Below are positions 3,049 through 34,063 of a stretch of 64,000 nt of DNA, in pieces. The position numbers were made by a program, and so were the translations under genes. The number at the start of each line of letters is the position of its first letter. Position 1 is the first letter of the stretch. The notes under the pieces are model-generated. The model ran no database searches and was not told the origin of the DNA. It was given only the letters and a program-made list of their open reading frames with translations. The stretch comes from Pelagicoccus enzymogenes (lineage in GTDB: Bacteria > Verrucomicrobiota > Verrucomicrobiia > Opitutales > Opitutaceae), in NCBI RefSeq assembly GCF_014803405.1, contig NZ_JACYFG010000009.1, forward strand, positions 124,001 to 188,000, in the 5' to 3' direction.

Positions 3049-3058
3049 CCCGATCCCC

Positions 3059-3152
3059 GTAGGGCGCGGGCTTTACTGCCCGTCCCGCAGAGCCCACCAT
3101 CCAGAAACCACCATAACACCACCGCGGGACGGGGATAACCCCCGCGCCCTAC
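3059..3152. repeat. Palindromic REP-like element, copy 1
   Basis: The element is a 94-bp imperfect palindrome that fills the gap between caspase genes A and B. The outer arms, gtagggcgcggg and cccgcgccctac, are perfectly complementary over 12 bp. The inner arms, cccgtcccgc and gcgggacggg, are complementary over 10 bp, with ttta-type mismatches between the two stems. Related copies lie at 6490-6619, 9892-9990 and 10561-10659. It could act as a transcript hairpin between the genes. Confidence 0.85.
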
Positions 3153-3157
3153 AGACA

Positions 3158-6493: not shown

Positions 6494-6619
6494 GGCGCGG
6501 GCTTTACTGCCCGTCCCGCAGAAGCCATCCCATAAGTCCCGCACAAACCGATCAAAACCAAACCGCCAATTCCACCCAAAACCGACCGCCACGGGCCGAA
6601 AAATAAACCTCGCCCCTAC
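6490..6619. repeat. Palindromic REP-like element, copy 2 (degenerate right arm)
   Basis: The left arm matches copies 1, 3 and 4 exactly over gtagggcgcggg plus the gcccgtcccgcag stem. The right arm (about 6586-6619, ending cgcccctac) is eroded and the middle is longer, so this looks like an older or rearranged copy. Its second to fourth bases are the TAG stop codon of caspase gene B. Confidence 0.75.
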
Positions 6620-6646
6620 CACATCCACTTTTTCAAAACCAAAACC

Positions 6647-9600: not shown

Positions 9601-9895
9601 AGAAAAGGCCCTCGCCCAACTCGCCCGGGCCACCGGCACGCATTGGATCGCCGCCTCCTCCGCCAGCCAATTCGCCACCGAGTTCGCCGACCTCGGCCAC
9701 GGCGCCTTCACCCACACGCTGCTGCAAGCCCTCGACGGCGGGGCCGACACCGGCGACCGCCGCATCACCATCAACGAGCTCAAGGCCTACCTCGAGAGCG
9801 AGCTCCCCACCATCACCCAAAAGTACAAAGGCGCCCCCCAATACCCCGCCAGCTACGGCTACGGCCAAGACTTCCCTATAGCATTACTCCCGTAG
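6647..9895 (+). CDS. Secreted beta-propeller/caspase-like protein C
   Basis: This 1082-residue paralogue has a signal peptide (MLPRLLTFLT, cleavage near SQAA). Residues about 25-690 form a propeller-like region, for example YTPDGKHILF and ISPSGNWLIK blades. A linker follows, but it lacks the TRGLxVEDD motif of the other three copies. The caspase-like domain (about 830-1082) has His913 in FYFAGHGVM and Cys969 in ILDACNSGGA. The NSGG context is closer to canonical metacaspases than the QSAG of the paralogues. It is the most divergent member of the array. The stop TAG is contributed by repeat copy 3. Activity and targets are inferred from the family only. Confidence 0.88.
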   Translation: MLPRLLTFLTLTLIATASQAAWQIESPDPLEQSPDGSLLVVSKKQDYSLTGFSVHDRETLATQFLVRQADAQPRHFAPDNSRLYYTTPTEGLFALDLTTGVITKLAPIPHILSLAQNSQTGQLVTLSGTWDSDAHSLHRIDPTGANAPQLLGTITAQNLPWLEFKAILPAREPDQALLIFREIGPPKNQWDPKTWGDFRFTQVSLETGAIASNATMPAPNESFFLYETIRWTNDQRQLLEYASGAYLQIDPYAGKITRTLDLRNVKFSLYPNNQVVSLRTVTEEGETRHYQDFLEGGTLKTIRNVRVPEPNTWPPRPAGLIESLNLPNLPSPGAYANYTFHPSKPEFFATDSGEGVHFFRVAPSGLKHQSRGMGAYQARYTPDGKHILFEGLFDPPTEQIAADKFPSPGSLVYEDPPLRTTSPVYTGDHEISPSGNWLIKINNRDATLHRFGEPAILSSLGGVGTYDAPMPSFRFASDETALYRLARTVSWDDYDNQIIGLRLEALPLDPANEFPEPTWTVELPHSNLVWLDKTVAQEIHFLDTQSGQLLLLDPRDGSSSSQAITGLDPENFVVPTNSVQWHPSRDLVYVASGSQVTTLDLAASPPTAASVTVPASIRQLHRYGDGRHLVAQLETGPLVFLDTQPTPLRPTLQLEFYDLDQGDYLAFTPNGKFDASAPIRQSGQLLQGTRPTALATVFERDYRPDLLATALGEDALSTDEEIPAYVQPPSLTVGEQWVSALERRINVNSESKQYPLSTVSIYQNEKLVHSFPANGKTSLRDNHVLDLLLEQNRIKVVSTNTAGVSVTSEEIVIDPPEALLREKIAARRPAELHLFAVGVNQYRNPEYNLNFAEADASGVLAKIQAANRDLFAKINVHHLESAAATHDGILAAFAQIRANALPHDAFIFYFAGHGVMSRDDAQFYLIPHDVTRIYGESQSLSQNGISANQLRDISATIKAQKQLFILDACNSGGALQAFAQRGASQEKALAQLARATGTHWIAASSASQFATEFADLGHGAFTHTLLQALDGGADTGDRRITINELKAYLESELPTITQKYKGAPQYPASYGYGQDFPIALLP

Positions 9896-9990
9896 GGCGC
9901 GGGCTTTACTGCCCGTCCCGCAGAGCCCACCATCAAAAAAACACAAAGCAACCAAACCACCGCGGGCCGGGGAATAAACCCCGCCCCTAC
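9892..9990. repeat. Palindromic REP-like element, copy 3
   Basis: This 99-bp element starts gtagggcgcggg and ends cgcccctac. It is nearly identical to copy 4, including the AT-rich middle (catcaaaaaaacacaaag). It supplies the TAG stop of caspase gene C and lies 10 bp upstream of the RAYT start. Confidence 0.85.
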
Positions 9991-10000
9991 AAAAAGCATC

Positions 10001-10564
10001 GTGCCACAGCTCCCCATCCGCAAAACGCACCACCTCGCCTACGGACGCGTCTCGATTCCAGGAGCTACCTACTTCATCACCCTCGTCACCCAAAACCGCA
10101 AAACCGACCTCACCGCCAACGACCATCCCGAGCACATCGCCGACACCCTTCGCGCCCTTCATCGAGATAAAATAATAAACCTCCGCTGCGCCACAACCAT
10201 GCCTGATCACCTGCATCTGCTCTTCGTCCTCGGCGAGGTCTGCTATCTCTCGCTCGCAATCTCCAAGTTCAAAAACGCCACCCGCAAAGCTCTCGCCGCC
10301 CATTCACTCTACTGGCACCGCAACTACTACGACCACCGCATCCGCCAAGAAGCCAACACCAACGACTTCGCCCGTTACATCTTCCTCAACCCCTATCGAA
10401 AGAGCCTCCTGACCGCCGACCAACTCTGGCCCCACTGGCTCTGCAACCGCACCTACAAGCCCGACTTCCAACAACAACTCACCCCCAACGGCACCCCACC
10501 CGCAGCTTGGTACAAAAACGCTCCCACCGCCCAAGACCTAATTGATCAAGACACTCACCCGTAG
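10001..10564 (+). CDS. REP-associated tyrosine transposase (RAYT, Y1_Tnp/IS200-like)
   Basis: This 187-residue protein is a single-strand HUH-type transposase of the RAYT group. The HUH pair is His70/His72 in TMPDHLHLL and the likely nucleophile is Tyr126 in ARYIFLNPYR; the YxxxNP context is typical of RAYTs. The length is normal for the family. The start used is GTG at 10001, preceded closely by repeat copy 3, and the TAG stop lies in repeat copy 4. RAYTs bind and nick REP hairpins and usually persist as single-copy genes, so it probably mobilised or maintains the palindromes in this cluster; that link is inference. There is no passenger gene. Frame and motifs look intact, so activity is possible. 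Confidence 0.88.
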   Translation: MPQLPIRKTHHLAYGRVSIPGATYFITLVTQNRKTDLTANDHPEHIADTLRALHRDKIINLRCATTMPDHLHLLFVLGEVCYLSLAISKFKNATRKALAAHSLYWHRNYYDHRIRQEANTNDFARYIFLNPYRKSLLTADQLWPHWLCNRTYKPDFQQQLTPNGTPPAAWYKNAPTAQDLIDQDTHP

Positions 10565-10659
10565 GGCGCGGGCTTTACTGCCCGTCCCGCAGAGCCTACC
10601 ATCAAAAAAACACAAAGCCACCAAACCACCACGGGACGGGGAATAAACCCCGCCCCTAC
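10561..10659. repeat. Palindromic REP-like element, copy 4
   Basis: This 99-bp element is nearly identical to copy 3, with a few substitutions such as gcctacc for gcccacc and acgggacgggg for gcgggccgggg. Its TAG at 10562-10564 terminates the RAYT gene. Caspase gene D starts 27 bp after it. Confidence 0.85.
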
Positions 10660-10686
10660 AGCGCTACAAGCCACTTCTCGCCATCC

Positions 10687-13600
10687 ATGATCCAGACTCT
10701 CCGCCAGCTTCTCTTCCTCGCCCTTTGCGTCGTCACGAGCACGCCCCTTGTCGCCCAATTCGAGGAACTCCTGCAAAATCCAGACCTCATCGAACAATCC
10801 GATTTCGCTCCCCCCTCCGAATCCGCTTCCAGCGAAACCAACACCACTCCCCCTGCGCCCGCCACCCCACCCCCACCGCCCCGCCTACTTAGCTCTTCCC
10901 TGCATCGCGACCCCATTCTGCAACTCGACGCTTCCCCCGACGGACGCTACCTGCTCAGCCTCGACCAGCATGTATTGAAAATTTGGAACATCGAACAACG
11001 CGCCAACATCGCCACCTTCGAGCAAACGCCCGGCGGCTGGCGCTTCAACGACCCGCAAGTCATCATGGGAGCCTGGTTCACAAACACGCCACGCCAAATC
11101 CTCGTCTGCACCAACCACGGCTTCACCCTCTACGACGACTTTAACTTCTCCACCGGCAAGCAAAGCAAATTCGAACCGACCGCCTACTGGTTCAACGCCG
11201 CCGAACAAGCGGTCTATGTCGCCGTCTACAATACCAAATACAACAAACTCCAACTCACACTCACACGCGTTGACCTCTCCACACGCGAGCGAACCTCCTC
11301 CCACACTATCGACCTCTCCAAGGAAAACCTCGTCAAATCCGGCACTGCCATTACGCCGAGTAGTCGAAATTTCATTACCGTCGATCCCCAAGGCCGCTTC
11401 GCCACCATTCGCTTCCAAGGCGAAAACCCACTCCTGCTCGTCGACTTGGCAAACGGCGAAATCGCCGCTCGCGTCCCCGCCCAGCACGGCGCTCTCGGCT
11501 TCCTCCCCGATGGACGCATTCTCGGTCACACCCGCGAGAGCAACCTCAATACCTATACCATCGTCAACCCCGTCACTTTCCAAACCCAGCCACTCTTCCA
11601 ACTCTCCTCATCCTCGAACCTGTCACCCAAACTCCCGACCCGCCTCGGCCAGCCTCTCCTTCTCGCCTCCGGTTACGAATTCGCCGTCCACGATCTCGCC
11701 TCTCGCCAGACGACTCCCCTCCAGCGTCTCGAAAACCGCGTCACCGACGCGTCCATCACCGTTCGCGAACCCAATCGGGCCACCACCCTCATCGCCCAAT
11801 CAAACCGCCAAAGCGGCGACTACTCCCAAGCCACCGCCACCTACCTCGAACCCATCTCAATTCCCTCCGGCATTTTCGGCCAAGCCTGGTCCGTCCCCAC
11901 CTTCGCCCCCCACGCCATCGCCGCCCGCCCAGACGACTTCGAACTCGCCATCCGCAGAGGCGCCGACGCCCGTATCGTCCGCTTCAACGAAGTCGGACTC
12001 GACATACAAAACGTCGAATTGCCTAGCGCTGCCCTCGGCCCCTTCACCCCCCTTTACCATCCAGTAAACGAAGATTGGCAGTTCCTCGGGAGCAACCAAC
12101 CTCGCGTCGCCTCACGGGCAGCCAGAGACTCAACCTTCCAACTCTCCACCCTCGGCCCCGATTTTTTCCAAAAGGAGGGCGACAACCGCCGTTTCGCTCT
12201 ACGCAACACCCACTTCTACGACCTATCCCGCGACGGCCAAACCATCGCCCTTCACCACAACACTGCCGTCACCGTCGTCGACCGACCCAGCGGAAAACGC
12301 ATCGCCACCTTCCCCATCGACTCCCCGTATTCGTACGCCGACAACAACCAGCAACTCCTCGCCCTCTCGCCCGACGGACAGACTGTCGCCTTCGCCTACA
12401 CGACCAAAACCGACAACGGATCTCTCGACATCGTCGAATGCCACGACGTATCCACCGGTAAACTACTCTGGAAAGCCCCCTGCGACAAACCCTTCGAAAC
12501 CATCGATTTCCTCCGCTACAGCGGCGACGGCCGCCTCCTCTATCTAAAGGGCCCTATCGGCGGCCCGACCGGTTCGAACTGGTTCAGCTCCCGCTTCGTC
12601 ACCACGGGCGAGGTGAATTCAAAAATCGACTACACCTCCGCCCACCTCCACGCCTACAACCGAGCGAGCACCCTCGTAGCCCAAGCCAGCTATAACAACA
12701 TCACCCTAAAAACCCTTCCCGACGGAAAAGCGACCGCAACTCTTGCCCTCGACTTCAAGCCCGCCACTCTCGCCTACATCGGCTCCGACAACTTCCTCGT
12801 CGCCACCTCGAACAACGACGAAACCCTCCGCCTCATCGACATCCGCGAACAAGCCGTCATCGCCGAAATCAAGCTCTTCGAAGACCCAAAGAAGTGGCTC
12901 GTACGCCATCCCGGAACCGGCCTCTTCACCTCCGAAACCTCCCTGCAAAAGGACCTCAAGTTCATCCAAGGCGAAACCATCACCCCGCTCGAATCCTACT
13001 TCGACCAATTCTACCAACCCCGCCTCCTCGGCTCCCTTGTCAAAGGCCTCTCGCCCAAGCCCACCATCCCGCTCAGCGACCTCAGTCTCGCCCCAAAGCT
13101 CACTCTGAAAATCGACGGCCCCGCCACCCGCGGGCTCACCGTCGAAGACGAATTCGAAACCTTCGAACTTCCCACCCCCGAGGTCACCCTCAAGCTCGAC
13201 GCCACTTGCGAAGGTTCCCCCATCGCCGACCTGCGCATCTACCACAACGGCAAGCTCGTATCCGGCGCCACCCGCGGACTCTTCGTCGAAGACGACGAAG
13301 ACGCCCCCCTCACCGAGACCTTCACCAAAACCGCCACTCACACCTTCGCCCTCACTCCTGGCAAAAACCGATTCCGCGCCATCGCCATCAACGAGCAAGG
13401 CACCGAATCCGCACCCGACGAAATCATCGTCTACTCCGAAACCACCGCCCCCGAAAGCGAAGGCGGCATCGCCCTCCACTTCCTCGTAGTTGGCATCAAC
13501 GAGTACCAGAATCCTCAATACAATCTCAACTACGCCCAAAAGGACGCCGCCGCCATAGAGGCCATCCTCGCCAAACGCTACGGACAACTCTTCACCCGCC

Positions 13601-14229
13601 AGAACCGATACGCCCTCTACAATTCCGAAGCCACCCGCGAAAACATCCTCGCCACCCTCGACACCATCAAGTCCGAAGCCAATCCCCGCGACGTATTCAT
13701 ATTCTACTACGCAGGTCACGGCGTCGTTTCCGAAGACGACGACCCCGAGTTCTTCCTCGCTCCCTACGAGATCACCCAGCTCTACGGCGAACGCCGCATC
13801 CTCCGCCAGCTCGGCATTTCTAGCGACGAGCTACTCGCCTATTCCCGCGACATCTCCGCCCAAAAGCAGCTCTTCCTCCTCGACGCCTGCCAATCCGCCG
13901 GAGCCCTGAAGAGCCTCGCCGTACGCGGAGCCGTGGAAGAACGCGCCATCGCCCAGCTCGCCCGCAGCAGCGGCACCCACTGGCTCACCGCCACCGGCAG
14001 CGAACAATTCGCCACCGAGTTCGACAGCCTCGGCCACGGAGCCTTCACCCACGTAGTCCTGCAAGCCCTACAAGGCGCTGCCGACACCGGCGACGGCCTC
14101 GTCTCCGTCAACGAGCTCAAAGCCTACGTGGAAGCCCAAGTCCCCGAGCTCACCCAAAAGGAAAAAGGCGAAGCCCAGTACCCCGTCACCTACGGCTACG
14201 GCCAAGACTTCCCCCTCGCCATCCCTTGA
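10687..14229 (+). CDS. Secreted WD40-like propeller/caspase-like protein D
   Basis: This is the longest paralogue at 1180 residues. A signal peptide (MIQTLRQLLF, cleavage near LVAQ) is followed by a Pro/Ser/Thr-rich spacer (about 35-75) and WD40-type blades, for example DASPDGRYLLSL with LKIWNIEQRA. Two TRGLxVED motifs (13125-13151 and 13270-13296) lie in the beta-sandwich linker. The caspase-like domain (about 930-1180) has His1011 in YYAGHGVVSE and Cys1068 in LLDACQSAGA. It ends the array and converges with the MFS gene 21 bp away. Whether it is an active protease, an inactive scaffold or one that cleaves itself cannot be told from sequence. Confidence 0.88.
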   Translation: MIQTLRQLLFLALCVVTSTPLVAQFEELLQNPDLIEQSDFAPPSESASSETNTTPPAPATPPPPPRLLSSSLHRDPILQLDASPDGRYLLSLDQHVLKIWNIEQRANIATFEQTPGGWRFNDPQVIMGAWFTNTPRQILVCTNHGFTLYDDFNFSTGKQSKFEPTAYWFNAAEQAVYVAVYNTKYNKLQLTLTRVDLSTRERTSSHTIDLSKENLVKSGTAITPSSRNFITVDPQGRFATIRFQGENPLLLVDLANGEIAARVPAQHGALGFLPDGRILGHTRESNLNTYTIVNPVTFQTQPLFQLSSSSNLSPKLPTRLGQPLLLASGYEFAVHDLASRQTTPLQRLENRVTDASITVREPNRATTLIAQSNRQSGDYSQATATYLEPISIPSGIFGQAWSVPTFAPHAIAARPDDFELAIRRGADARIVRFNEVGLDIQNVELPSAALGPFTPLYHPVNEDWQFLGSNQPRVASRAARDSTFQLSTLGPDFFQKEGDNRRFALRNTHFYDLSRDGQTIALHHNTAVTVVDRPSGKRIATFPIDSPYSYADNNQQLLALSPDGQTVAFAYTTKTDNGSLDIVECHDVSTGKLLWKAPCDKPFETIDFLRYSGDGRLLYLKGPIGGPTGSNWFSSRFVTTGEVNSKIDYTSAHLHAYNRASTLVAQASYNNITLKTLPDGKATATLALDFKPATLAYIGSDNFLVATSNNDETLRLIDIREQAVIAEIKLFEDPKKWLVRHPGTGLFTSETSLQKDLKFIQGETITPLESYFDQFYQPRLLGSLVKGLSPKPTIPLSDLSLAPKLTLKIDGPATRGLTVEDEFETFELPTPEVTLKLDATCEGSPIADLRIYHNGKLVSGATRGLFVEDDEDAPLTETFTKTATHTFALTPGKNRFRAIAINEQGTESAPDEIIVYSETTAPESEGGIALHFLVVGINEYQNPQYNLNYAQKDAAAIEAILAKRYGQLFTRQNRYALYNSEATRENILATLDTIKSEANPRDVFIFYYAGHGVVSEDDDPEFFLAPYEITQLYGERRILRQLGISSDELLAYSRDISAQKQLFLLDACQSAGALKSLAVRGAVEERAIAQLARSSGTHWLTATGSEQFATEFDSLGHGAFTHVVLQALQGAADTGDGLVSVNELKAYVEAQVPELTQKEKGEAQYPVTYGYGQDFPLAIP

Positions 14230-14250
14230 AAGATGTTGCAGAGCACCTCC

Positions 14251-15510
14251 CTAGCTGACGCCCTTTAAACAAGCTTCGCTCGCCGCCTGGTAGCTACATT
14301 CCGGTCTGGCAGAGCCTGACCTCCGAGCGCTCAGGCGCAGAATCCAAGGGCCGCCTAAGCCGATAAACAGGGACAGGATCGCGACCAAGCCAAACGCGAC
14401 CTGCAGCCCGGCCCATTCGCTCGCCAAGCCGACCAGCGGCGGTCCCGAAAGAAACCCGAGATAGCCGATCGTCGAAACCGCAGCCACCCCGCGTCCCACG
14501 CCATCCGGATGGGCCCGCCCGCCCGCGCCCAAAAAGATCGGCACCAGATTCGCAATGCCCACTCCCGCCAATCCCAATCCGACGAAAGCCACTTGCCACA
14601 CCGGCACCGCCGAGACCAAGGCGATTCCCGCCACCGCGAACCCGCCACTCCAGCGCAGCAGCCGCACGCTCCCCAAACGCTCCATCAAATAGTCTCCCGA
14701 AAAGCGCCCCGCCGCCATGGCGCAGCTAAACATTCCGTAAGCGAACGGAGCCAACCACGCCTCCGCGCTGGCCACGTCGCGCACGTAGACCGCACTCCAG
14801 TCCATCATGACTCCCTCCGCAAAAAGAGAGACAAAAGCTAGGGCTCCCACCGCAACAATCGCCCCATTCATCGAAGTTCCCCTACCCGTCTTTGCCGGCG
14901 CTTCCCTATCGGTCGCCACCGGCAGGTCCGGCAGGAGACGCTTCGCCCGCGCCCACCCCAAGCCGCAAACCAGCAGGCCGACCGACAAGGCAGTCCCCTC
15001 CACCGAAACGCCAAACTTCAGCACCACTCCAATCGCCGCCGCCACCAACAGGCCGCCCAGGCTCCAGAGCGCCTGCAGCCGAGCCATGATCGGACGTCCC
15101 ACCGCCTTCTCCACCACGATGGCCTGGGAGTTGAGCGACACGTCAAAAGCGCCCTTCAAAGCTCCCAAAATTCCCGCCGCGACCACCGCTACCGCAAAAC
15201 TCTCCGCAAAAACCGGCCCCAGCAACGCCAGGCCAAATAGCGGCACGATCGCCGTCAAGCCGCCACGACTACCGAAGCGCGAAACCACTCGCCCCACCGT
15301 AGGCATGCCCACCAAGGCGCCCCCCACCATCGACAACAGCAGCGCCGACAGCCCCAGCTCATCCAAATCCAGCCTTTCCTTCAGCAGCGGCAGCAAAGCC
15401 GCCCACATCCCAAAGCCAATTCCGTTCATCAAGTAAAGCGACGCAGCCGCCCAACGAGCCCGAGCCACTTCGCTTTCCACTCCTCCGTCAATCGTATCCG
15501 TTCCTGCCAT
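14251..15510 (-). CDS. Major facilitator superfamily transporter, YbjJ-like
   Basis: This hydrophobic protein of about 419 residues has around twelve predicted membrane helices. It includes the SLNSQA stretch after helix 4 and the MDWSAVYVRD stretch after helix 7 that recall the YbjJ group of MFS permeases. An ATG at 15510 is used; a GTG 9 bases upstream is possible, and neither has a strong ribosome-binding site. It is transcribed away from the LysR gene at 15582, with about 70 bp between them that includes a dyad, so the LysR protein probably controls it. The substrate is unknown. The C-terminus after helix 12 is basic and serine-rich. Confidence 0.8.
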   Translation of the reverse strand: MAGTDTIDGGVESEVARARWAAASLYLMNGIGFGMWAALLPLLKERLDLDELGLSALLLSMVGGALVGMPTVGRVVSRFGSRGGLTAIVPLFGLALLGPVFAESFAVAVVAAGILGALKGAFDVSLNSQAIVVEKAVGRPIMARLQALWSLGGLLVAAAIGVVLKFGVSVEGTALSVGLLVCGLGWARAKRLLPDLPVATDREAPAKTGRGTSMNGAIVAVGALAFVSLFAEGVMMDWSAVYVRDVASAEAWLAPFAYGMFSCAMAAGRFSGDYLMERLGSVRLLRWSGGFAVAGIALVSAVPVWQVAFVGLGLAGVGIANLVPIFLGAGGRAHPDGVGRGVAAVSTIGYLGFLSGPPLVGLASEWAGLQVAFGLVAILSLFIGLGGPWILRLSARRSGSARPECSYQAASEACLKGVS

Positions 15511-15568
15511 GCCCCACACTCTATCAGCACTGCTCTCATAATTCTAATTGTACTTTTTCATGGGCTTA

Positions 15569-15583
15569 ATAACTCTGAGTTAT
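15569..15583. promoter_or_regulatory. Likely LysR-type operator (T-N11-A dyad)
   Basis: The sequence ataactctgagttat is a perfect inverted repeat of two 7-bp arms around one base and fits the T-N11-A rule of LysR operators. It overlaps the first bases of the LysR start codon and lies in the gap to the divergent MFS gene. This suggests autorepression and control of the transporter. Confidence 0.5.
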
Positions 15584-16454
15584 GGAGATTGCCCAACTCA
15601 AATCCTTCCTCGTCCTGGCGGAACAGCTGCACTACGGCCGCGCCGCTGCCGCGCTCCACCTCTCCCAGCCGGCCCTCACCAAACAGATCCAACGCCTGGA
15701 GGAAGATCTGGGCGGCGCCCTCTTCGAGCGCGGCACCCAGGGCACCCGCCTCAGCGCCTTCGGGGAGCAATGGCTCCAAGAGGCTCGCCAAGTGAACCAG
15801 AAACTGGACGGTCTCCTGGATCGCGGCCGCCAGATAGCCCTCGGCGAAACCGGTCGGATCCGCATCGGTTTCGGCTATCACTCCCTCGAGCTTGTGCCCA
15901 GCGTCGTCGTAAAACTCCGCGACAGAGCCCCAGGTATCCAAATTTCCCTACGCGACATGTCGACCGCCGAACAGCTCGCCGCCCTGGAAGAAGGCAAGCT
16001 GGACCTCGCTTTCGTTCGCGTCCCCATCGCCAACCACAGCGACTACGAAAGCCTACCCGCCATCGAAGACCGCATGGCCCTCGTAACGGCTCGTTCCCAA
16101 ACCGGAGGAAAAAAACTCAAGCTCGCCGACGTACGCGACCAAGCCTTCGTCACCATTTCCAAACTACGCTCCCCCGGCTTCTTCGGCCACATGCTCGCCC
16201 TCTGCGCCAAACACGGCTTCCACCCGCGCATCGTGCAGCAGGTGAGCGAATTCCCCACCGCCCTGGCCCTCACCCGCGCCGGGATGGGCGTCACCATGAT
16301 CCCCGAATCCTACTGGAACTCCGACTACAAAAGCCTGCAAATCCACCGCATCGCCGCCGCTGACTCCAAATGGAAAGTGGGCGCCCTTTGGCGTCGGGGC
16401 GACCGAAACCCCGCCCTCCATCGCTTCCTCGAAGCCTTGAAAACCTTTCTCTAG
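15582..16454 (+). CDS. LysR family transcriptional regulator
   Basis: This 290-residue protein has an N-terminal winged helix-turn-helix (residues 1-60, HYGRAAAALHLSQPALTKQI) typical of LysR regulators. A periplasmic-binding-like effector domain follows (about 90-290), with GRIRIGFGYHSLELVP at its start. Length is normal. It lies divergent to the MFS gene, and a T-N11-A dyad overlaps its start codon, the usual arrangement for a LysR protein that controls itself and its neighbour. The inducer is unknown, though it may relate to the transporter's substrate. Confidence 0.92.
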   Translation: MEIAQLKSFLVLAEQLHYGRAAAALHLSQPALTKQIQRLEEDLGGALFERGTQGTRLSAFGEQWLQEARQVNQKLDGLLDRGRQIALGETGRIRIGFGYHSLELVPSVVVKLRDRAPGIQISLRDMSTAEQLAALEEGKLDLAFVRVPIANHSDYESLPAIEDRMALVTARSQTGGKKLKLADVRDQAFVTISKLRSPGFFGHMLALCAKHGFHPRIVQQVSEFPTALALTRAGMGVTMIPESYWNSDYKSLQIHRIAAADSKWKVGALWRRGDRNPALHRFLEALKTFL

Positions 16455-27056: not shown

Positions 27057-27812
27057 ATGTTAGCCAAACGCATCATCCCATGCCTCGACGTCCACGCCGG
27101 CCGCGTCGTCAAAGGCGTTAAGTTCAAAGAGCTCCGCGACGCGGGCGATCCAGTGGAATCCGCCAAAGCCTACGACCAGCAAGGAGCCGACGAACTCGTC
27201 TTTCTCGACATCACAGCCTCCTCCGACGAACGCCAGATCATGCGCGACGTCGTCGAGCGCACCGCCTCAGAATGCTTCATGCCTCTCACCGTCGGCGGCG
27301 GACTGCGCACGGTCGAAGACATTCGCAAGATGCTGCACTCCGGAGCCGACAAGGTTTCCCTCAATACCGCTGCCATCAACAACCCCGACCTCATTTTCGA
27401 TTCCGCCAAGAAGTTCGGCAACCAATGCATCGTGCTCGCCATCGACGCCAAGCGCGACGGCGACTCCTGGCGCGTCTACACTCACGGCGGACGCAACCCC
27501 ACCCCGCTCGACGCCATCGAGTGGGCCAAGAAAGCCGTCTCCCTCGGCGCCGGCGAAATCCTCCTCACCAGCATGGACGCCGACGGCACCCTAGCCGGCT
27601 ACGACTGCGAACTCACTCGCCGCATCTCCGAGTCGGTGGAAGTTCCCGTCATCGCTTCCGGAGGAGCAGGCAATCTCGACCACATGGTCGACGTGCTCAA
27701 CGAAGGCAAAGCCTCCGCCGTGCTCGCTGCCTCCATTTTCCACTTCGGCACTTACACCATCAAGCAAGCCAAGGAACATCTCGCTGCCGCCGGACTGCCC
27801 GCGCGGCTCTAG
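27057..27812 (+). CDS. hisF: Imidazole glycerol phosphate synthase cyclase subunit HisF
   Basis: HisF closes the imidazole ring using ammonia from HisH, giving IGP and AICAR in histidine biosynthesis. It is a 251-residue (beta/alpha)8 barrel of normal length. Asp11 in [15 protein letters not shown] and the Asp in [15 protein letters not shown] are the catalytic pair. Phosphate-binding segments VGGGLR and ASGGAG are present. No other his gene is adjacent. The Rrf2 gene follows 30 bp later on the same strand, so they might share transcription, though their functions are unrelated. Confidence 0.97.
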
Positions 27813-27842: not shown

Positions 27843-28277
27843 ATGGAGCTTACAAAATTCTCGGACTACAGCCTCAGAATGCTCCTCTACCTTGGGCTCA
27901 ATCCCGACCGAGTCGTTTCATTGGTCGAGATCGCCGACGCCTATTCGATTTCCAGAAATCACTTGGTCAAGATCTCTAACCACCTCGCCAAACTCGGGCT
28001 CGTGCAAGCGACTCGAGGCAAGGGCGGCGGTCTGCAACTCAGCAAAGCCCCCGAGGATATCAATATCGGGAGCGTGGTACGCAGCACCGAAGGCCATAGT
28101 CCCCTCGTCGAGTGCTTCGATCCCGAGAGCAACACTTGTTGTATTATAAAGAGCTGCGCCCTGAAAGGCGTCCTGAAAAAGGCGGAGCGAGCCTTCTACT
28201 CCGAACTTGACCAACACTCCTTGCAAAACCTTCTACGCAACCGCAAAGGCCTCAAGCTTGCCCTTGCCAAAGATTAA
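27843..28277 (+). CDS. Rrf2 family regulator, NsrR-like (nitric oxide sensing candidate)
   Basis: This 144-residue protein has the Rrf2 winged helix (KFSDYSLRMLLYL, SISRNHLVKISNHLAKLG) and wing (RGKGGGLQLSK). Asp8 and Cys91, Cys99/Cys100 and Cys105 match the spacing of the Asp and Cys ligands that hold the [4Fe-4S] cluster in characterised NsrR proteins; in the family, NO destroys the cluster and relieves repression. The downstream genes encode haem lipoproteins, a globin and electron-transfer proteins, which fits an NO or nitrite regulon. NsrR identity is inference; IscR or RsrR types have different Cys patterns. It may repress the genes from 28533 onward. Confidence 0.82.
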   Translation: MELTKFSDYSLRMLLYLGLNPDRVVSLVEIADAYSISRNHLVKISNHLAKLGLVQATRGKGGGLQLSKAPEDINIGSVVRSTEGHSPLVECFDPESNTCCIIKSCALKGVLKKAERAFYSELDQHSLQNLLRNRKGLKLALAKD

Positions 28278-28298
28278 GCGCCCAATATTTCGCGCTCA

Positions 28299-28328
28299 TA
28301 AGCTGCGACGTCAAAATCCCGCAGCTTA
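28299..28328. terminator. Hairpin after the Rrf2 gene (weak terminator candidate)
   Basis: taagctgc pairs with gcagctta around a 14-base loop, 22 bp after the Rrf2 stop. There is no T run, so a Rho-dependent end or simple mRNA 3' stabilisation is as likely as intrinsic termination. Confidence 0.4.
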
Positions 28329-28355
28329 CAGGATTTCAAAAACGCTTCGCGATTA

Positions 28356-28366
28356 ATGAAATTCAT
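28356..28366. promoter_or_regulatory. 11-bp palindrome, possible NsrR-type half operator
   Basis: atgaaattcat is a perfect odd palindrome in the 255-bp gap before the haem-protein genes. NsrR family sites consist of AT-rich 11-bp dyads of this kind. It is 167 bp from the next start codon, which is rather far, so this is tentative. Confidence 0.25.
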
Positions 28367-28532
28367 AGTTCTCCCATTTGAGAATGTGTCGCATTTTTCG
28401 TAGTTACATTTCCCATACATGCATACAGGAATGACACGGACTCGCTCTTTTTCTTTAAAGTAATATTCTAAATACTTCTTTTGGCATCGCCGATGCTAAA
28501 ACCGGATTAGTTTCCCATTTGCCTAATCCGAA

Positions 28533-29126
28533 ATGAAAAAGAAAAACATCCTCTACGCAGTCCTCCTCAGTGGAGCGACTTTGACATCCACCCTGTTCCT
28601 CTCCGGCTGCGGAGAAAGCGAAGCCGCCACAGGCGGCATCTCTCCTCAAAAGATGGCTGACGGGCTTCACCTCGTAATGAAGTCAGACCGCACCATCTAC
28701 ACCCGCAACGTCGTCAACCGACTCGTCAAGCAAGACAAGGTCATCAAGGCTTCCGAGCACTGGGCCGACGACAAGGCCCTCCCGCTTCCCGCCCAGATGT
28801 TCCGGATGGGAGCGGAAATGGTAGCGAAGGAGCCAGACGCTGGCTTCTCCTACTCCCTGCAATCCATCTGGCCAATCAACGCTCAGAACGCTCCCAAGAC
28901 AGAGGTCGAAAAGACAGGCCTTCAATACGTAGTTGATAATCCAGGACAAAACTACTACGCCGAGGAGGAGCTTGGCGGAGTCAAGTACTTCACCGGCGTC
29001 TACGCAGACACCGGAGTAGCCGCTGCTTGCGTCGATTGCCACAACGAGCACAAGGACTCCCCCAAAACCGACTTCAAGCTCGGCGACGTCATGGGCGGAG
29101 TCGTCATTCGCATTCCCCTAGACTAA
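28533..29126 (+). CDS. Haem c lipoprotein, DUF3365/Tll0287-like domain
   Basis: This 197-residue lipoprotein precursor has a lipobox at LFLSGCGES (Cys26). The mature part fits the Tll0287-like haem domain (DUF3365) often found as the sensor of bacterial kinases: a helical N-terminal half, an aromatic middle (YSLQSIWPIN) and a single CVDCH haem motif (166-170) followed by NEH. A lone haem lipoprotein of this type may be a redox or gas sensor or an electron shuttle in the periplasm. It is first of a run of haem genes downstream of the NsrR-like regulator. Confidence 0.78.
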   Translation: MKKKNILYAVLLSGATLTSTLFLSGCGESEAATGGISPQKMADGLHLVMKSDRTIYTRNVVNRLVKQDKVIKASEHWADDKALPLPAQMFRMGAEMVAKEPDAGFSYSLQSIWPINAQNAPKTEVEKTGLQYVVDNPGQNYYAEEELGGVKYFTGVYADTGVAAACVDCHNEHKDSPKTDFKLGDVMGGVVIRIPLD

Positions 29127-29213
29127 TACGCGAAGCTGACTCCAAGCAGAGCCTCTCACGTGAGGTTCTGCTTTGGAAAACCCAATCTTTAGGCCCTCCT
29201 CATTCCTCTCAAT

Positions 29214-29597
29214 ATGAATGTTCGCTGGAAGTGCAGCTCTGCTGTTCTCGCTATTCTGTTCTGTTCCTGCGGTGAAAAGCCTGCGGTCTCGAATAGCGGC
29301 GGCTTCGATCCGTCTAGCGTGCCCTTGACCGACCCAGACCTCATCGCAGGTCAAAAGACTTGGTCGGAAACCTGCACCACCTGCCATCTGACTGGGCTCA
29401 CCGGAGCGCCCATCATCGGCAACAAAGCCGCTTGGGAGCACCGCATAGCCAAGGGACTCGAGACCCTCTACGACCACGCCCTCAACGGCTTCATCGGCCC
29501 GGAGTACACCGAGATGCCTCCGAAGGGTGGCTTCGCAGAGCTAAGCGACGATCAAGTCAGGCAAGCGGTACGCTTCATGACCCACCTTAGCCAATAA
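29214..29597 (+). CDS. Cytochrome c5-like lipoprotein
   Basis: This 127-residue monohaem class I cytochrome has a lipoprotein-type N-terminus (LAILFCSCGE). The haem motif is CTTCH at 54-58. The likely distal ligand Met lies in YTEMPPKGGF, the pattern of the c5/c555 group. A final helix (SDDQVRQAVRFMTHL) completes the fold. It would sit on the periplasmic side and carry single electrons. The gene is 87 bp after the haem lipoprotein and 30 bp before the globin, so it is probably co-transcribed with both. Confidence 0.88.
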   Translation: MNVRWKCSSAVLAILFCSCGEKPAVSNSGGFDPSSVPLTDPDLIAGQKTWSETCTTCHLTGLTGAPIIGNKAAWEHRIAKGLETLYDHALNGFIGPEYTEMPPKGGFAELSDDQVRQAVRFMTHLSQ

Positions 29598-29627
29598 CTC
29601 TCCAATCATCCTCAACCTCTTATATCT

Positions 29628-30044
29628 ATGACCGAAAAACAAATCGAACTCGTCCAATCCTCTTGGGAAAAATGTATTCCCATCGCCGATACGGCAGCTT
29701 CCATTTTCTACGCAAAGCTCTTCGAGCTCGATCCTAGCCTCAAGCCACTTTTCAAGAGCGACATCAAGGAACAAGGAAAGAAGCTGATGACCATGATCAC
29801 CACGGCTGTTCGCGGGCTCAACAATCTCGAAGGGATCGTAGGGGCAGTCCAAGCCATGGGCAAACGCCACGTCGGATACGGAGTAAAGGACGAACACTAC
29901 GAGACAGTGGGAACCGCCCTCATTTGGACGCTCGGCCAAGGCCTCGGCGACGATTTCACGGAAGAGACGAAGGAAGCTTGGATCGCGACTTATACGCTCC
30001 TCGCTACCACCATGAAGGACGCTGCCAACGAAGTTGCTGCGTAA
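29628..30044 (+). CDS. Single-domain bacterial globin
   Basis: This 138-residue globin has family features FYAKLFELDPSLKPLF (B/C helices) and the proximal haem ligand His81 in GKRHVGYGVKDEHY, with the usual EHYETVGTALIW G-helix start. There is no FAD/NAD reductase domain as in flavohaemoglobin Hmp, so an external reductase must keep the haem ferrous; the FAD-BFD fusion encoded just downstream is an obvious candidate. Known single-domain globins bind O2 or detoxify NO. Together with the NsrR-like gene, NO dioxygenation or reduction is a reasonable inference. Confidence 0.92.
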   Translation: MTEKQIELVQSSWEKCIPIADTAASIFYAKLFELDPSLKPLFKSDIKEQGKKLMTMITTAVRGLNNLEGIVGAVQAMGKRHVGYGVKDEHYETVGTALIWTLGQGLGDDFTEETKEAWIATYTLLATTMKDAANEVAA

Positions 30045-30100
30045 CAAATTTCTAACTACAAATTAGATACAGGTAGACGCTTAGAGAGGGCGTGGGGTTC

Positions 30101-32098
30101 ATGCGAGCCCCACGTCTAAGCCTTGCCTGCCTTACTTCCTTGAAACCATCGCACCCAGAGTCACCGCCCTTGCGTATTGTCATCGTTGGCAACGGGATGG
30201 TTTCCCATCGCTTTTGCGACGAGCTTTCCAAAGCAAAATTCGACCAGAAACTGAAAGTCGACATTTTCGGCGAGGAACCCCACCCCGCCTACGATCGCGT
30301 CCACCTCACCGACTACTTCAAGAACCCCTCCCCCGAAACCCTCAGCCTCGGAAACTCAGACTGGTATTCCCGGAAAGGATACAAGCTTCACTGCGGTTTG
30401 CGCATCGAAAAAATCGATCGCGAGCAAAAGACCGTCATCGATGCTGCCGGCCAAAGCCACCCTTACGACAAACTCGTACTTGCCACCGGATCCTACCCCT
30501 TCGTTCCCCCCATCGAGGGAAGCGATGCTCCGGGGGTCTTCGTCTACCGCACCATCGCCGACGCCGACGCCATCATTCGCCATTGCGAGGGCAAATCCTC
30601 CGCCATCGTTTTAGGTGGAGGACTTCTGGGTCTCGAAGCGGCAAACGCGCTTAAAGAGCTAGGATTAAGCGCCACCGTGGTGGAGTTTGCCAATGGTCTC
30701 ATGCCGCGCCAACTCAACCAAGACGCGTCACTCGTACTTGAACAGCAAATACGCCAACTCGGTGTCACTCCCCTCGTGGGCAAAGGAGCTCAGAAGATAG
30801 AACGATCGAACGACGGCCTTTTGGTCAGCTTCAACGACGATACCAAGTTGCTCACGGATATTCTGGTCGTTGCCGCTGGAGTGCGGCCGGCCGACCAGCT
30901 CGCTCGGGACGCCGATTTGAATCTTGGAGCCCGCGGCGGCATCATCGTCAACGACCAGCTGCAAACCTCCGATCCTTCCATCTACGCGATCGGCGAATGC
31001 GCCCTGCACCGCGGGCAAATATACGGCTTCGTGGCACCCGGATATCAAATGGCAGAAGTTCTGGCCGACCAACTTTGCGACGGAAGCAAAACCTACCAAG
31101 GCTCCGACCTCTCCTGTCGCCTCAAACTCCTAGGGATAGAAGTAAGCACCTTCGGCGACTATCTCGGAGAGGGACGCACCCTCGTGCACCGCAGCCCGAC
31201 AAGCTATCGCATGATCGTGCTCAAGCGCGACTGCTTCGCCGGCGGAACCGTCGTCGGAAAATGGGACCAGACTCACCAGCTCCAGCTAGCAATCAAGGAA
31301 GAGCGTTTCATGACGCCCTCCGAGCAAGCCGCTTTCGAAAAAGACGGCCAAATTCCAGAGGGAGACGCATTGGCTGACTGGCCAAACAATGCCATCATCT
31401 GCAATTGCACGCAAACGACCAAAGGGAGCCTTTCCATCTGTATCTCATCCGGCTGCAAGACGGTGTCATCGCTCGGCAAAGCGACCGGAGCAGGATCGGT
31501 TTGCGGCTCCTGCCGTCCGTTGCTTGCCCAACTTTGCGGCGAATCAGGCCAAGAGGCCGCCTATCGCCCCAAAGGTCGTAAGAGCCTGTCGACAACTGCA
31601 ACCGTCGCGCTGCTGGCCTGCCTAGGATTCCTCCTCCTCGCCGCCTTTCCGGAACCGCAGAGCGTGCAGACGCTATACTTCAAGATCTCAAAGCTCTGGC
31701 ACGAGTCCCTCTACAAGCAAGTTTCGGGTTACAGCATGGCAGGCTTGTCTTTGCTGGCATTGCTACTCTCCGCTCGCAAACGGGTTCGCTTCCTGCGTCA
31801 GGGCAACTACGGCTGGTGGCGAGCCGCCCATGCCATCCTCGGAACCCTCTGCCTCGCCACTCTCGTAGCCCATACCGGCCTTGACTTCGGCAAAAACCTG
31901 AACCTCTGGCTCATGAGCTGTTTCGTCGGCTTGAACCTAGTAGGCGCGCTCGCAGGCCTGAGCATCGCGATGGAAGACAGATTCAGCGGCCCTTGGTCCC
32001 GCCGTATCCGTTCCCTGGTTACCAAAGCCCACATCCTCTTCTTTTGGCCCTATCCCGTCCTGCTAGGTTTCCACATCTACAAAGCCTACGCCTACTAG
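30101..32098 (+). CDS. Fusion of NirB-like FAD/NAD reductase, BFD [2Fe-2S] domain and di-haem b membrane domain
   Basis: This 665-residue protein has three parts. Residues about 25-410 are a pyridine-nucleotide-disulfide type FAD/NAD reductase like the NirB N-terminal half (IVIVGNGMVSHRF, ATGSYPFVPPIEG, LGGGLLGLEAAN, YAIGECALH). Residues about 430-480 are a BFD-like [2Fe-2S] domain with Cys434, Cys436, Cys468 and Cys471. The rest has about five membrane helices, with HX13H in AHAILGTLCLATLVAH and again in AHILFFWPYPVLLGFH, the signature of two b haems. The sirohaem nitrite reductase domain of true NirB is absent. ATG at 30101 is preferred over GTG at 30092 because gagaggg lies at a better distance. 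The stop is 1 bp before the multihaem gene. A transmembrane electron path is inferred. Confidence 0.85.
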   Translation: MRAPRLSLACLTSLKPSHPESPPLRIVIVGNGMVSHRFCDELSKAKFDQKLKVDIFGEEPHPAYDRVHLTDYFKNPSPETLSLGNSDWYSRKGYKLHCGLRIEKIDREQKTVIDAAGQSHPYDKLVLATGSYPFVPPIEGSDAPGVFVYRTIADADAIIRHCEGKSSAIVLGGGLLGLEAANALKELGLSATVVEFANGLMPRQLNQDASLVLEQQIRQLGVTPLVGKGAQKIERSNDGLLVSFNDDTKLLTDILVVAAGVRPADQLARDADLNLGARGGIIVNDQLQTSDPSIYAIGECALHRGQIYGFVAPGYQMAEVLADQLCDGSKTYQGSDLSCRLKLLGIEVSTFGDYLGEGRTLVHRSPTSYRMIVLKRDCFAGGTVVGKWDQTHQLQLAIKEERFMTPSEQAAFEKDGQIPEGDALADWPNNAIICNCTQTTKGSLSICISSGCKTVSSLGKATGAGSVCGSCRPLLAQLCGESGQEAAYRPKGRKSLSTTATVALLACLGFLLLAAFPEPQSVQTLYFKISKLWHESLYKQVSGYSMAGLSLLALLLSARKRVRFLRQGNYGWWRAAHAILGTLCLATLVAHTGLDFGKNLNLWLMSCFVGLNLVGALAGLSIAMEDRFSGPWSRRIRSLVTKAHILFFWPYPVLLGFHIYKAYAY

Positions 32099-32099
32099 C

Positions 32100-33440
32100 A
32101 TGAACCGAAAAAAGCTCCAATGGGTCTTGGCCGCGGCGACGCCTCTCTGGTTGACCTTCCACTTTCTCGCTTCGATCAAGGGCGAAAAGCGCAACGCCTT
32201 CATGCCGGGAGACGCTTCCCATGGACACCATCAGATCGAGCTGCAATGCTCCGTCTGCCACACCCCTGACATGGGCGTGAAGCACGACGCTTGCGCCTCA
32301 TGCCACCAGGATGAGTTGGACCGAGTCGCCGACTCCCATCCCATCACGAAATTTCTCGATCCGCGAAACGCAGACCGCGTCGCCATCCTCGACGCCCGCA
32401 AGTGCGTGAGCTGCCACGTCGAGCACCAGCCGGACCAAACCGCCCCCATGGGCGTCACCTTGCCCACCGACTATTGCTACTTCTGCCACCAAGACGTAGC
32501 CGATGAGCGCCCCACCCACGAAGGCCTGCCTTTCGACAGCTGCTCCACCTCCGGCTGCCACAACTTCCACGATAACACCGCCCTCTACGAAGACTTCCTG
32601 GAAAAGCACCTCGACGAGCCAGCCTTCAAGCTCAGCCCTCACGTTCCCCAGCGACAGTACTACGGAAAGTGGAGCAAGGAAAACGAACGCGCCCCGCTCG
32701 GCCTCTCCGAACGCGACGCGCCAAGCTCCGTTTCCTACTCGCAAGACGTCGCCTTCGAATGGTCCAACTCCAGCCACGCCCAAGCGGGCGTCAATTGCCT
32801 CGACTGTCACCAATCCCAGGATACGGGAACTTGGCTCGACAAGCCCGGCATCGCGTCCTGCCAAACTTGCCACGACTACGAAGCCGAAACCTTCCTGCAA
32901 AGCCGCCACGGCATGCGGCTCGCCCAAAACCTCTCGCCCATGACGCCCGCCCAAGCCCGCCTCCCCATGCACGCGGGAGCCGCCCACAAGGAGCTCAGCT
33001 GCGTCTCCTGCCACGACGACCACAGCTTTGAAACGAAGTTCGCGGCCATGGACGCCTGCGTGAGCTGCCACGACGACCAGCACACCCGAGCCTACAAGGA
33101 GTCCAAGCACTTCCAGCTTTGGGTCGCCGAAACGCAGGGCCAAGCCGAGCCCGGCACGGGCGTGAGCTGCGCTACCTGCCACTTGCCCCGAATCGAGCTG
33201 ACCGAATTCGGCGAAACCGTCACCAAGGTCCTGCACAACCAAAACGACGTGCTCCGCCCCAACGAAAAGATGATCCGTCCCGTATGCATCCAATGCCACG
33301 GCGTCGGCTTCTCCATCGACGCCCTCGCCGATCCCCTTTTGCTAAAGAACAACTTCCAGGGCATGCCCAACGAGCACGTGGAAAGCATCGATATGGTCAT
33401 CGAAAAGCTCAGCCGCGTGGCAGCCGAACGAGCAAAGTAG
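32100..33440 (+). CDS. Membrane-anchored multihaem cytochrome c (10 CXXCH + 1 CX4CH)
   Basis: This 446-residue protein has an uncleaved N-terminal helix (LQWVLAAATPLWLTF) that would anchor it with the haems in the periplasm. CXXCH motifs start at Cys50, 65, 102, 126, 233, 254, 301, 320, 357 and 396, and one CX4CH (CSTSGCH) starts at Cys148. Several extra His residues could serve as distal ligands. Overall similarity is to NrfH/cytochrome c3/doubled-CXXCH type proteins; no known catalytic motif such as the NrfA CXXCK is seen, so a conduit rather than an enzyme is likely. It begins 1 bp after the FAD-BFD-haem b fusion, which strongly suggests a shared complex. Confidence 0.9.
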   Translation: MNRKKLQWVLAAATPLWLTFHFLASIKGEKRNAFMPGDASHGHHQIELQCSVCHTPDMGVKHDACASCHQDELDRVADSHPITKFLDPRNADRVAILDARKCVSCHVEHQPDQTAPMGVTLPTDYCYFCHQDVADERPTHEGLPFDSCSTSGCHNFHDNTALYEDFLEKHLDEPAFKLSPHVPQRQYYGKWSKENERAPLGLSERDAPSSVSYSQDVAFEWSNSSHAQAGVNCLDCHQSQDTGTWLDKPGIASCQTCHDYEAETFLQSRHGMRLAQNLSPMTPAQARLPMHAGAAHKELSCVSCHDDHSFETKFAAMDACVSCHDDQHTRAYKESKHFQLWVAETQGQAEPGTGVSCATCHLPRIELTEFGETVTKVLHNQNDVLRPNEKMIRPVCIQCHGVGFSIDALADPLLLKNNFQGMPNEHVESIDMVIEKLSRVAAERAK

Positions 33441-33571: not shown

Positions 33572-34063
33572 ATGATTCTTGGGCAGCTCATCCAGACGGG
33601 GCGTCGCTTTTGCGAGTGCCGCTCGAGCGATTTCATTCCGAAATCCGAGGATACCGTCGTGGTCATCGCATACAGCATCGACGACAAGTTTCTCGCTCAC
33701 TCCTTCGACACGGACCTCCTCGACCTCAAGGGCGCGATCCGCACCTGGCTCCTGCAAATCAAGGCGGTCGGCTACCTGCTCATCCGACGCAAGCCCCATG
33801 GGCTGCAGCGTGAGTTTCCCAGCCCTCTCGGTCGCCGCCCCATGGACCAGGTCACGCTGACCGCCGCTACCAAGGAGGAGTTCACCGTCGTCTCCTACTT
33901 CCTGGAGGAAATCAGCGGACTCGATTCCTATCGCCTCGTTCCCGCCCAAGCCCGCGGAGCGAAATCCGACTCCACTCGCCAAAACCTTTTCCGAATCCAA
34001 GAGGAAAAACCCGAAGCGGCGCCGCGCACCCTTTGCTTCGAGTTCGACGGAATGGCTAACTGA
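33572..34063 (+). CDS. Hypothetical protein, 163 residues
   Basis: I do not recognise this protein. It is soluble, with mixed strands and helices: TVVVIAYSIDDKFLAHSF and AIRTWLLQIKAVGYLLIRRKP are the most structured stretches. Two Cys near the N-terminus (RRFCECRSS) could bind metal but have no partner pair. Codon use matches its neighbours and the frame is uninterrupted, which supports a real gene. It stands alone between the multihaem cytochrome gene and the glyoxalase-like gene, with about 130 and 86 bp gaps. Confidence 0.6.
   Translation: MILGQLIQTGRRFCECRSSDFIPKSEDTVVVIAYSIDDKFLAHSFDTDLLDLKGAIRTWLLQIKAVGYLLIRRKPHGLQREFPSPLGRRPMDQVTLTAATKEEFTVVSYFLEEISGLDSYRLVPAQARGAKSDSTRQNLFRIQEEKPEAAPRTLCFEFDGMAN

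Follow-up and report, generated by a model that had tools for sequence, protein, structure and literature searches.

Six genes that directly follow hisF in Pelagicoccus enzymogenes may encode an NAD(P)H-driven electron module that crosses the inner membrane and serves protection against nitric oxide (NO) and nitrite, a reading to which we give a nearly even chance. The genes lie on the plus strand at positions 27843-33440 of a 64,000-nucleotide stretch (contig NZ_JACYFG010000009.1, positions 124,001 to 188,000; hereafter the window) of a 6.2 Mb draft assembly. They encode, in order, an Rrf2-family regulator, a Tll0287-like c-haem lipoprotein, a mono-haem cytochrome c, a single-domain globin, a fusion of a NirB-type flavin adenine dinucleotide (FAD) and NAD(P)H domain with a [2Fe-2S] domain and a putative di-haem b membrane domain, and an undecahaem c-type cytochrome. 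What is observed directly is which genes are present and their conserved order, together with candidate cofactor residues that do not vary, co-occurrence across genomes and the exchange of one globin family for another; it is from these that the reading is drawn.

The Rrf2 gene (27843-28277) starts 30 bp after hisF (27057-27812, named by sequence alone) and is followed, after a gap of 255 bp, by the Tll0287-like gene (28533-29126), after a further 87 bp by the cytochrome c gene (29214-29597), after 30 bp by the globin gene (29628-30044), after 47-125 bp, depending on the start chosen, by the fusion gene (30092-32098), and after a single base by the undecahaem gene (32100-33440). A preliminary description of this DNA had listed the same six open reading frames (ORFs), all of which are present at the positions and on the strand it gave, and had called them closely spaced. 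The latter is true of the five redox genes, but not of the Rrf2 gene, which is set off by the promoter-sized 255-bp gap.

Conservation of the gene set

The full-length fusion was found in 6 of 57 genomes, that of the window included, and the undecahaem cytochrome in the same six. All six show one order after hisF, that is, Rrf2, Tll0287-like gene, cytochrome c, globin or globin remnant, fusion and undecahaem cytochrome. Five of these genomes are among the eight of the genus and one (G015) comes from another genus, while the genus genomes G003, G004 and G005 are without the module. Among 387 genomes of the phylum, the cytochrome was found in nine and the membrane domain in the same nine, adjacent by coordinates; in the eight of them outside the window genome, the fusion-cytochrome pair is followed by a Tll0287-like gene.

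For a wider scan, the cytochrome alignment was searched against 84,980 species genomes, by which 405 loci were confirmed and the best 80 kept, a sample biased towards closer relatives. The counts for these 80 loci are a recount with hidden Markov models (HMMs), whose profiles were built from clusters that include the same loci. By their titles, the loci belong to Verrucomicrobiota, Planctomycetota, Poribacteria, Pseudomonadota, Myxococcota, Dadabacteria, Nitrospirota, Binatia and Bryobacterales, and the module occurs in the cultured genera Alcanivorax, Marinobacter, Hahella, Aliagarivorans and Cerasicoccus. The fusion lies within 3 kb of the cytochrome and on the same strand in 80/80 loci and the Tll0287-like gene in 78/80, a single-domain globin lies within 3 kb in 55/80 (54 of them on the same strand) and a cytochrome c in 27/80, and an Rrf2 gene was found anywhere in the stretch in nine. 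Therefore, the fusion, the undecahaem cytochrome and the Tll0287-like protein form the core, with the globin as a frequent partner and the regulator as a minority feature. The six genes had been proposed as one unit; this stands for the three core genes, whereas the globin and the cytochrome c are only frequent partners and the Rrf2 gene was found in only 9/80 loci. With one gene order shared by six genomes, and a core that recurs in several phyla, the arrangement is not due to chance, and the conserved neighbourhood that the preliminary description had asked for does exist.

The fusion and the undecahaem cytochrome

The fusion gene ends at 32098, and its start is uncertain, with GTG 30092, ATG 30101 and TTG 30170 as candidates; the orthologue in G001 is without the N-terminal extension. 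Pyr_redox_2 and Fer2_BFD are recognized by Pfam, and the membrane part carries four invariant His, in agreement with the FAD-[2Fe-2S]-di-haem b make-up suggested earlier. Across 33 fusions, Pyr_redox_2 is present in all and Fer2_BFD in 32, and the four BFD Cys and four membrane His are invariant, as they are in a 14-sequence alignment. The His pairs, 556/570 and 623/637 (A11 numbering), fall in helices 549-571 and 610-627/629-643 of a predicted model (mean predicted local distance difference test score 88, predicted template modelling score 0.63), and basic stretches behind membrane helices two and four are compatible with loops on the cytoplasmic side, which would place the C-terminus in the periplasm. 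Thus, the architecture expected of a trans-membrane electron conduit is in place, with invariant iron-sulphur Cys, two helix regions of two His each and an 11-haem partner one base downstream.

The first two domains, FAD/NAD(P)H and BFD [2Fe-2S], are shared with NirB. However, the NCBIfam NirB model is matched over 1-471 of 794 only and below its cut-off, the catalytic sirohaem/4Fe-4S C-terminal part being unmatched and a five-helix di-haem membrane domain standing in its place. Among the best 50 Foldseek matches listed for the fusion, there are matches to the FAD domain only, and Pfam gives scattered weak matches for the membrane domain (DUF4079, DUF4405 and Ni_hydr_CYTB, 1/33 members each). 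In the NOX/FRE layout, which we take to be a cytoplasmic flavin domain with two stacked haems held by two helices of two His each, the two His pairs on two membrane helices have a counterpart. Unlike NOX/FRE proteins, the fusion has a NirB-type flavin domain with a [2Fe-2S] domain in place of an FNR-type domain, and a dedicated 11-haem partner. Neither a ferric-reductase domain nor an FNR-type flavin domain is among 25 of the 26 Pfam families listed for the 33 fusions, or among those listed for the window protein.

The undecahaem protein, with an N-terminal hydrophobic helix and matches to Pfam multihaem cytochrome families, carries ten CXXCH motifs and one CX4CH, with no CXXCK. All 11 haem motifs and 11 further His are invariant across 42 cytochromes, a pattern that suggests 11 bis-His haems and a wire rather than an enzyme, although invariant His need not be haem ligands. 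The periplasmic haems had been suggested to serve NO or nitrite chemistry; the conduit part of that claim stands, but the residues point to electron transfer rather than catalysis. No relatives were found in plasmids at E 1e-20.

Could the cytochrome itself be a periplasmic nitrite, NO or hydroxylamine reductase, supplied with electrons from NAD(P)H by the fusion? NrfA and octahaem nitrite reductases are matched weakly and locally in sequence, an NrfA-type NCBIfam model matches 17/42 members (best E 1.3e-10) and Pfam Cytochrom_C552 11/42, and one of the invariant His could be an active-site residue instead of a ligand. In the fold search, only a hydroxylamine oxidoreductase (HAO; 6t5e) came close to significance, a weak match at E 2.9e-3 and a template modelling score of 0.28, and the predicted model is of low quality in much of the span 35-162. 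Yet these matches span short stretches, none of family length, and the presence of 11 more His without any variation, for 11 haems, suggests bis-His ligation throughout. A CXXCK haem is an example of an open catalytic haem, and the lack of this motif in the window protein sets it apart from NrfA and octahaem (HAO-type) enzymes, even if an open CXXCH haem could still occur. Consequently, we regard a reductase as very unlikely.

A different role, as a general conduit unconnected with NO, would be to send reducing power out to the periplasm or the cell surface, for redox poise or extracellular electron transfer. This would suit the DmsE-like decahaem profile found in 42/42 members and the MtrC/MtrF-like domain found in 30/42. 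An undecahaem cytochrome has also been proposed to act in electron uptake by Tenderia in the available part of one report (PMC5371394), where the likeness is by description only. To such a conduit we attach little probability indeed, as it leaves the globin and the nitrate genes unexplained and no porin is encoded among the six window genes, an Alginate_exp-type porin gene being seen in 13/94 loci. The 94-locus ORF counts come from a simple greedy caller that mislabelled some antisense frames, and they include three duplicates (L077, L078 and L079, which are G001, G007 and G015). The Alginate_exp-type outer-membrane protein gene (e.g., L147 6736-7923; Pfam was run on one member) stands in several loci between the module and nitrate transporter genes.

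Exchange of globins

NO protection would give the globin a place. The window globin (29628-30044; Pfam Globin 62.8 bits, proximal His81) is a 138-amino-acid protein alone, and, as had been noted, Pfam finds no reductase domain in it; the Hmp model is matched over positions 3-138 of 399, and the globin-reductase fusion of flavohaemoglobin is thus absent. Single-domain globins require an outside reductase, which for most of them is unknown. The nearest solved structures are 3wfw, 3s1i and 3ubc (E 6.5e-32 to 8.9e-29), presumably the Hell's Gate-type globins of Methylacidiphilum, and this likeness is one of sequence.

A globin of either family, single-domain or truncated, lies within 5 kb of the cytochrome in 59/80 loci, which supports the genetic link between conduit and globin. 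The proximal His is kept in 63/64 single-domain globins of the cluster (three loci counted twice). It is lost in the single-domain globins of G002 and G006, where Pfam gives a sub-threshold globin and no globin, respectively, and in each of these genomes a truncated haemoglobin gene separates the Tll0287-like gene from that of cytochrome c. A dispensable globin, or a haem-free role for it, was considered from this loss and was dropped, since both genomes have the truncated haemoglobin in the same gene set. Five more loci (two of Cerasicoccus, an Opitutales metagenome-assembled genome (MAG) and two of Aliagarivorans) carry a truncated haemoglobin, while a single-domain globin is absent from the stretch examined. 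Altogether, truncated haemoglobins are present in 7/94 loci, with three His invariant in all seven, and in no wide-scan locus did a truncated haemoglobin occur together with a single-domain globin that keeps its proximal His. The truncated-globin trait requires four changes on a tree of 89 cytochromes, from which the three duplicates and L109 and L119 (no cytochrome ORF called) were omitted. We take the exchange, limited to seven loci and about three lineages, as the best indication that a functional haem globin, of either family, is required wherever the gene set includes one.

The lipoproteins, the regulator and the upstream region

The Tll0287-like protein (28533-29126; sCache_heme, PF11845, 67 bits against a cut-off of 24.1) and the cytochrome c (29214-29597; Pfam Cytochrome_CBB3, 48.6 bits) have one CXXCH each. 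Both had been described as haem lipoproteins. The lipobox of the former is clear, whereas that of the window cytochrome c is weak, though its Cys is invariant in six orthologues, and the protein is a probable lipoprotein. The CXXCH is present in 90/90 Tll0287-like members, as in the sCache_heme/Tll0287 family of PMC12889525, so far as the available part of that source goes; a difference is that its gene here lies close to those for the 11-haem cytochrome and the fusion, and another that no Cys which could serve as the axial ligand typical of the redox class was seen in the 90 members inspected. In 76/90 of them, there is no Cys beyond the haem pair after residue 45, and the other 14 have the extra Cys close to the lipobox, 136-180 residues N-terminal of the CXXCH. 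According to the same partial source, NO binding is weak in a stand-alone Tll0287-like protein with Cys/His haem ligation and tight in a signalling-type protein that has no axial Cys (PMC12889525). A haem-Cache lipoprotein without a candidate axial Cys is therefore consistent with NO, and we regard an NO role for it as a lead. No sequence match was found for it in the PDB (phmmer, E 1).

The regulator (27843-28277; Pfam Rrf2, 123.3 bits) keeps its position in six genomes. Of the residues singled out in the preliminary description, Asp8 and Cys91, Cys99, Cys100 and Cys105, all are present, but Cys100 varies among the six orthologues, in which the other four are invariant. Asp8 with three cluster cysteines is, we believe, the ligand set of NsrR, and this set (Rrf2 fold, Asp8 and three Cys) is found in the window regulator; its Cys spacing is presumably also that of RirA. 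The NsrR-like residues are consistent with NO, and an NO response of the gene set is plausible.

By upstream alignment and motif scoring, the regulatory gap (28278-28532, plus strand) holds a weak NsrR-like box, AAGTAATATTCTAAATACTTCTT at 28458-28480, and, 3' of it, a conserved dyad, TTTTGGCATCGCCGATGCTAAAA. A published NsrR operator consensus is gATGyAT-N5-ATrCATc in the available part of PMC1274295; the 23-base form scored here, by comparison with 300 shuffles, may differ from the published one. A 23-base box at a similar distance before the Tll0287-like start is seen in Pelagicoccus genomes. It is strong in G006 and G007 (0/300 shuffles each) and moderate in G001 (6/300), G002 (13/300) and the Opitutales MAG (3/300), and in two Cerasicoccus it is not significant (240/300 and 49/300); in K14 (G015), a strong box lies just past the Rrf2 stop (0/300). 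The dyad, as GG-N10-GC, fits what we take to be the sigma54 -24/-12 spacing. As a marker of a regulon, the dyad was set aside as only a lead, since a reversed control pattern gave as many matches at no more than one mismatch. A second exact genomic copy of TTGGCAYNNNNNATGCTAA, the dyad upstream of the Tll0287-like gene, occurs at L157 1501-1519 (G000:C5:476165-476183), some 50 bp before a possible minus-strand start codon.

Nitrate genes and the nearest known systems

NrtA, NrtB, NasT, NasA or NarK was found anywhere in the stretch in 33/80 loci (29 of the 59 stretches longer than 15 kb), NrtCD being left out as it may include other ATP-binding cassette (ABC) ATPases; with NrtCD the count is 43/80. 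Nitrate-type ABC-transporter genes are also near the pair in 7/8 phylum genomes outside the window genome, G363 being the exception. For ten chosen proteins of G232, G239 and G285, the best NCBIfam matches include NirA-family, sulphite-reductase flavoprotein and one of two NrtCD above the cut-off, and NrtB, NarK and the other NrtCD below it; a substrate-binding protein matches SsuA only weakly and one protein has no match. The profiles of NrtA, NrtB, NrtCD, NasT, NasA and NarK have no match in the window. The setting given to the module earlier therefore needs an addition, as nitrate uptake and assimilation genes are near in 33/80 loci, though none was found in the window.

Then, could the module be an electron-supply or redox-balancing arm of nitrate/nitrite assimilation, in which the fusion is a membrane-anchored NasB/Flp-like NAD(P)H reductase that serves an assimilatory reductase of nitrate or nitrite, the cytochromes drain or feed it, and NO protection is secondary? 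Besides the 33 loci, clusters with a nitrate-type ABC transporter, NirA, CysJ-like and DmsB-like proteins would agree with this. The nearest precedent is Bjgb/Flp/NasC of Bradyrhizobium, where a globin and an FAD reductase act in nitrate assimilation and NO detoxification, and Flp is needed for growth on nitrate (PMC4724949, as far as the source was available). Both systems have a single-domain globin gene beside an FAD/NAD(P)H oxidoreductase and a link to nitrate genes. However, Flp is likened to cytoplasmic oxidoreductases, with no mention in the available part of that source of a di-haem membrane domain, an undecahaem cytochrome or a Tll0287-like lipoprotein, and the window genes are not in a nitrate assimilation cluster, a feature found elsewhere, e.g., in L093 and L095.

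P. enzymogenes carries a nitrate cluster on another contig, C60. NirB was identified there by search; the other members, named from sequence, are a NasA-like protein, a NarK-like transporter, an NrtC/D-like ATPase and a protein that fuses an iron-sulphur part to a membrane part. That NasA and NirB are together there, with no nitrate-type gene found in the window, speaks against an assimilation arm. In the genus, the module stands apart from the nitrate cluster, next to the Rrf2 gene, and module and NirB are separable, G002, G006 and G007 having the module without full-length NirB and G003 and G004 having NirB without the module. Furthermore, a cytoplasmic reductase can be fed without a membrane and periplasmic arm. 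On balance, we consider an assimilation arm somewhat unlikely. Beside the NasA-like gene of C60, L049 3455-5104 (minus strand) encodes a 549-amino-acid protein that resembles the DmsB-like protein of G232 and has the look of a membrane anchor joined to an iron-sulphur subunit.

No description of this gene set was found in the literature searched, which most subscription journals lay outside and of which some sources were available in part, nor was a characterised system that matches it; Bjgb/Flp is a partial precedent. The module resembles Bjgb/Flp, in its globin and FAD reductase, and the NOX-type layout, yet it departs from each in at least one tested feature.

Neighbouring features

On the 3' side of the undecahaem gene, a gene at 33572-34063 (plus strand) encodes a 163-amino-acid protein with no Pfam match. 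Each of the five further genomes that share the gene order has a counterpart just past its undecahaem gene (35-69% identity), and the gene may be part of the operon. At the other end, window positions 1-16000 show a strong negative GC skew (-0.27 to -0.43 per 2-kb step) over several large plus-strand ORFs, and in later steps the skew is mostly -0.06 to -0.27.

Proposed mechanism and its meaning

The haem pairing, the direction of electrons, the partners, the NO chemistry and the regulation of the proposed NO/nitrite-protection module are what we infer from such sequence patterns. NAD(P)H would reduce the cytoplasmic FAD of the fusion, and the electrons would pass through the [2Fe-2S] cluster to two stacked b haems, the inner one probably held by His580/His647 and the outer one by His594/His661 of the window protein. 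From there they would reach the periplasmic 11-haem cytochrome and then the Tll0287-like and small cytochrome c lipoproteins. The cytoplasmic globin would be an NO scavenger, probably a dioxygenase, supplied by the same flavoprotein or by another reductase, and the NsrR-like regulator would be the likely source of NO-linked control in this lineage. Where nitrate genes are near, as in loci elsewhere, the module would handle by-product NO of nitrate uptake and assimilation.

Several observations weigh against this reading. There are 47/80 loci without a nitrate gene of the counted kinds in the stretch examined, some stretches being short, and 21/80 without a globin within 5 kb (in one of them, L082, a truncated haemoglobin lies 5.5 kb away). 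All eight genus genomes have a NasA-like match (G001 and G004 at 33% identity only) and only five of the eight hold the module, which therefore seems unneeded for nitrate assimilation in the genus. A twelfth His of the cytochrome, H170, is nearly invariant in the 42 sequences, and the His count thus leaves the ligands unsettled. The regulator scores below the NCBIfam cut-off for NsrR (129.6 bits against 182), with a nearly equal score for RirA (124.5 bits against 193), and the putative operator of the window itself, matched at 13/21 positions, is not significant, as 65/300 shuffles do as well. For the lipoprotein, stand-alone members were assigned a redox role, and NO binding by the stand-alone protein stayed weak in its C59A variant, so that the absence of the Cys alone does not predict NO binding (PMC12889525, as far as available).

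In its furthest form, the proposal would be a two-compartment NO defence, widespread and so far undescribed, in which one flavoprotein-di-haem fusion powers both a cytoplasmic globin NO dioxygenase and, via the 11-haem wire and the haem-Cache lipoprotein, periplasmic NO/nitrite reduction, with two globin families swapping in one slot. We think this form unlikely to hold in full. The module provides a conserved candidate redox partner beside single-domain globins in several phyla, and the fusion, a NirB-type head joined to a di-haem membrane domain, is an unusual build for a cross-membrane NAD(P)H reductase. If the NO link is true, an intrinsic safeguard against NO would be common to many bacteria that assimilate nitrate, and current annotation names it only piecemeal.

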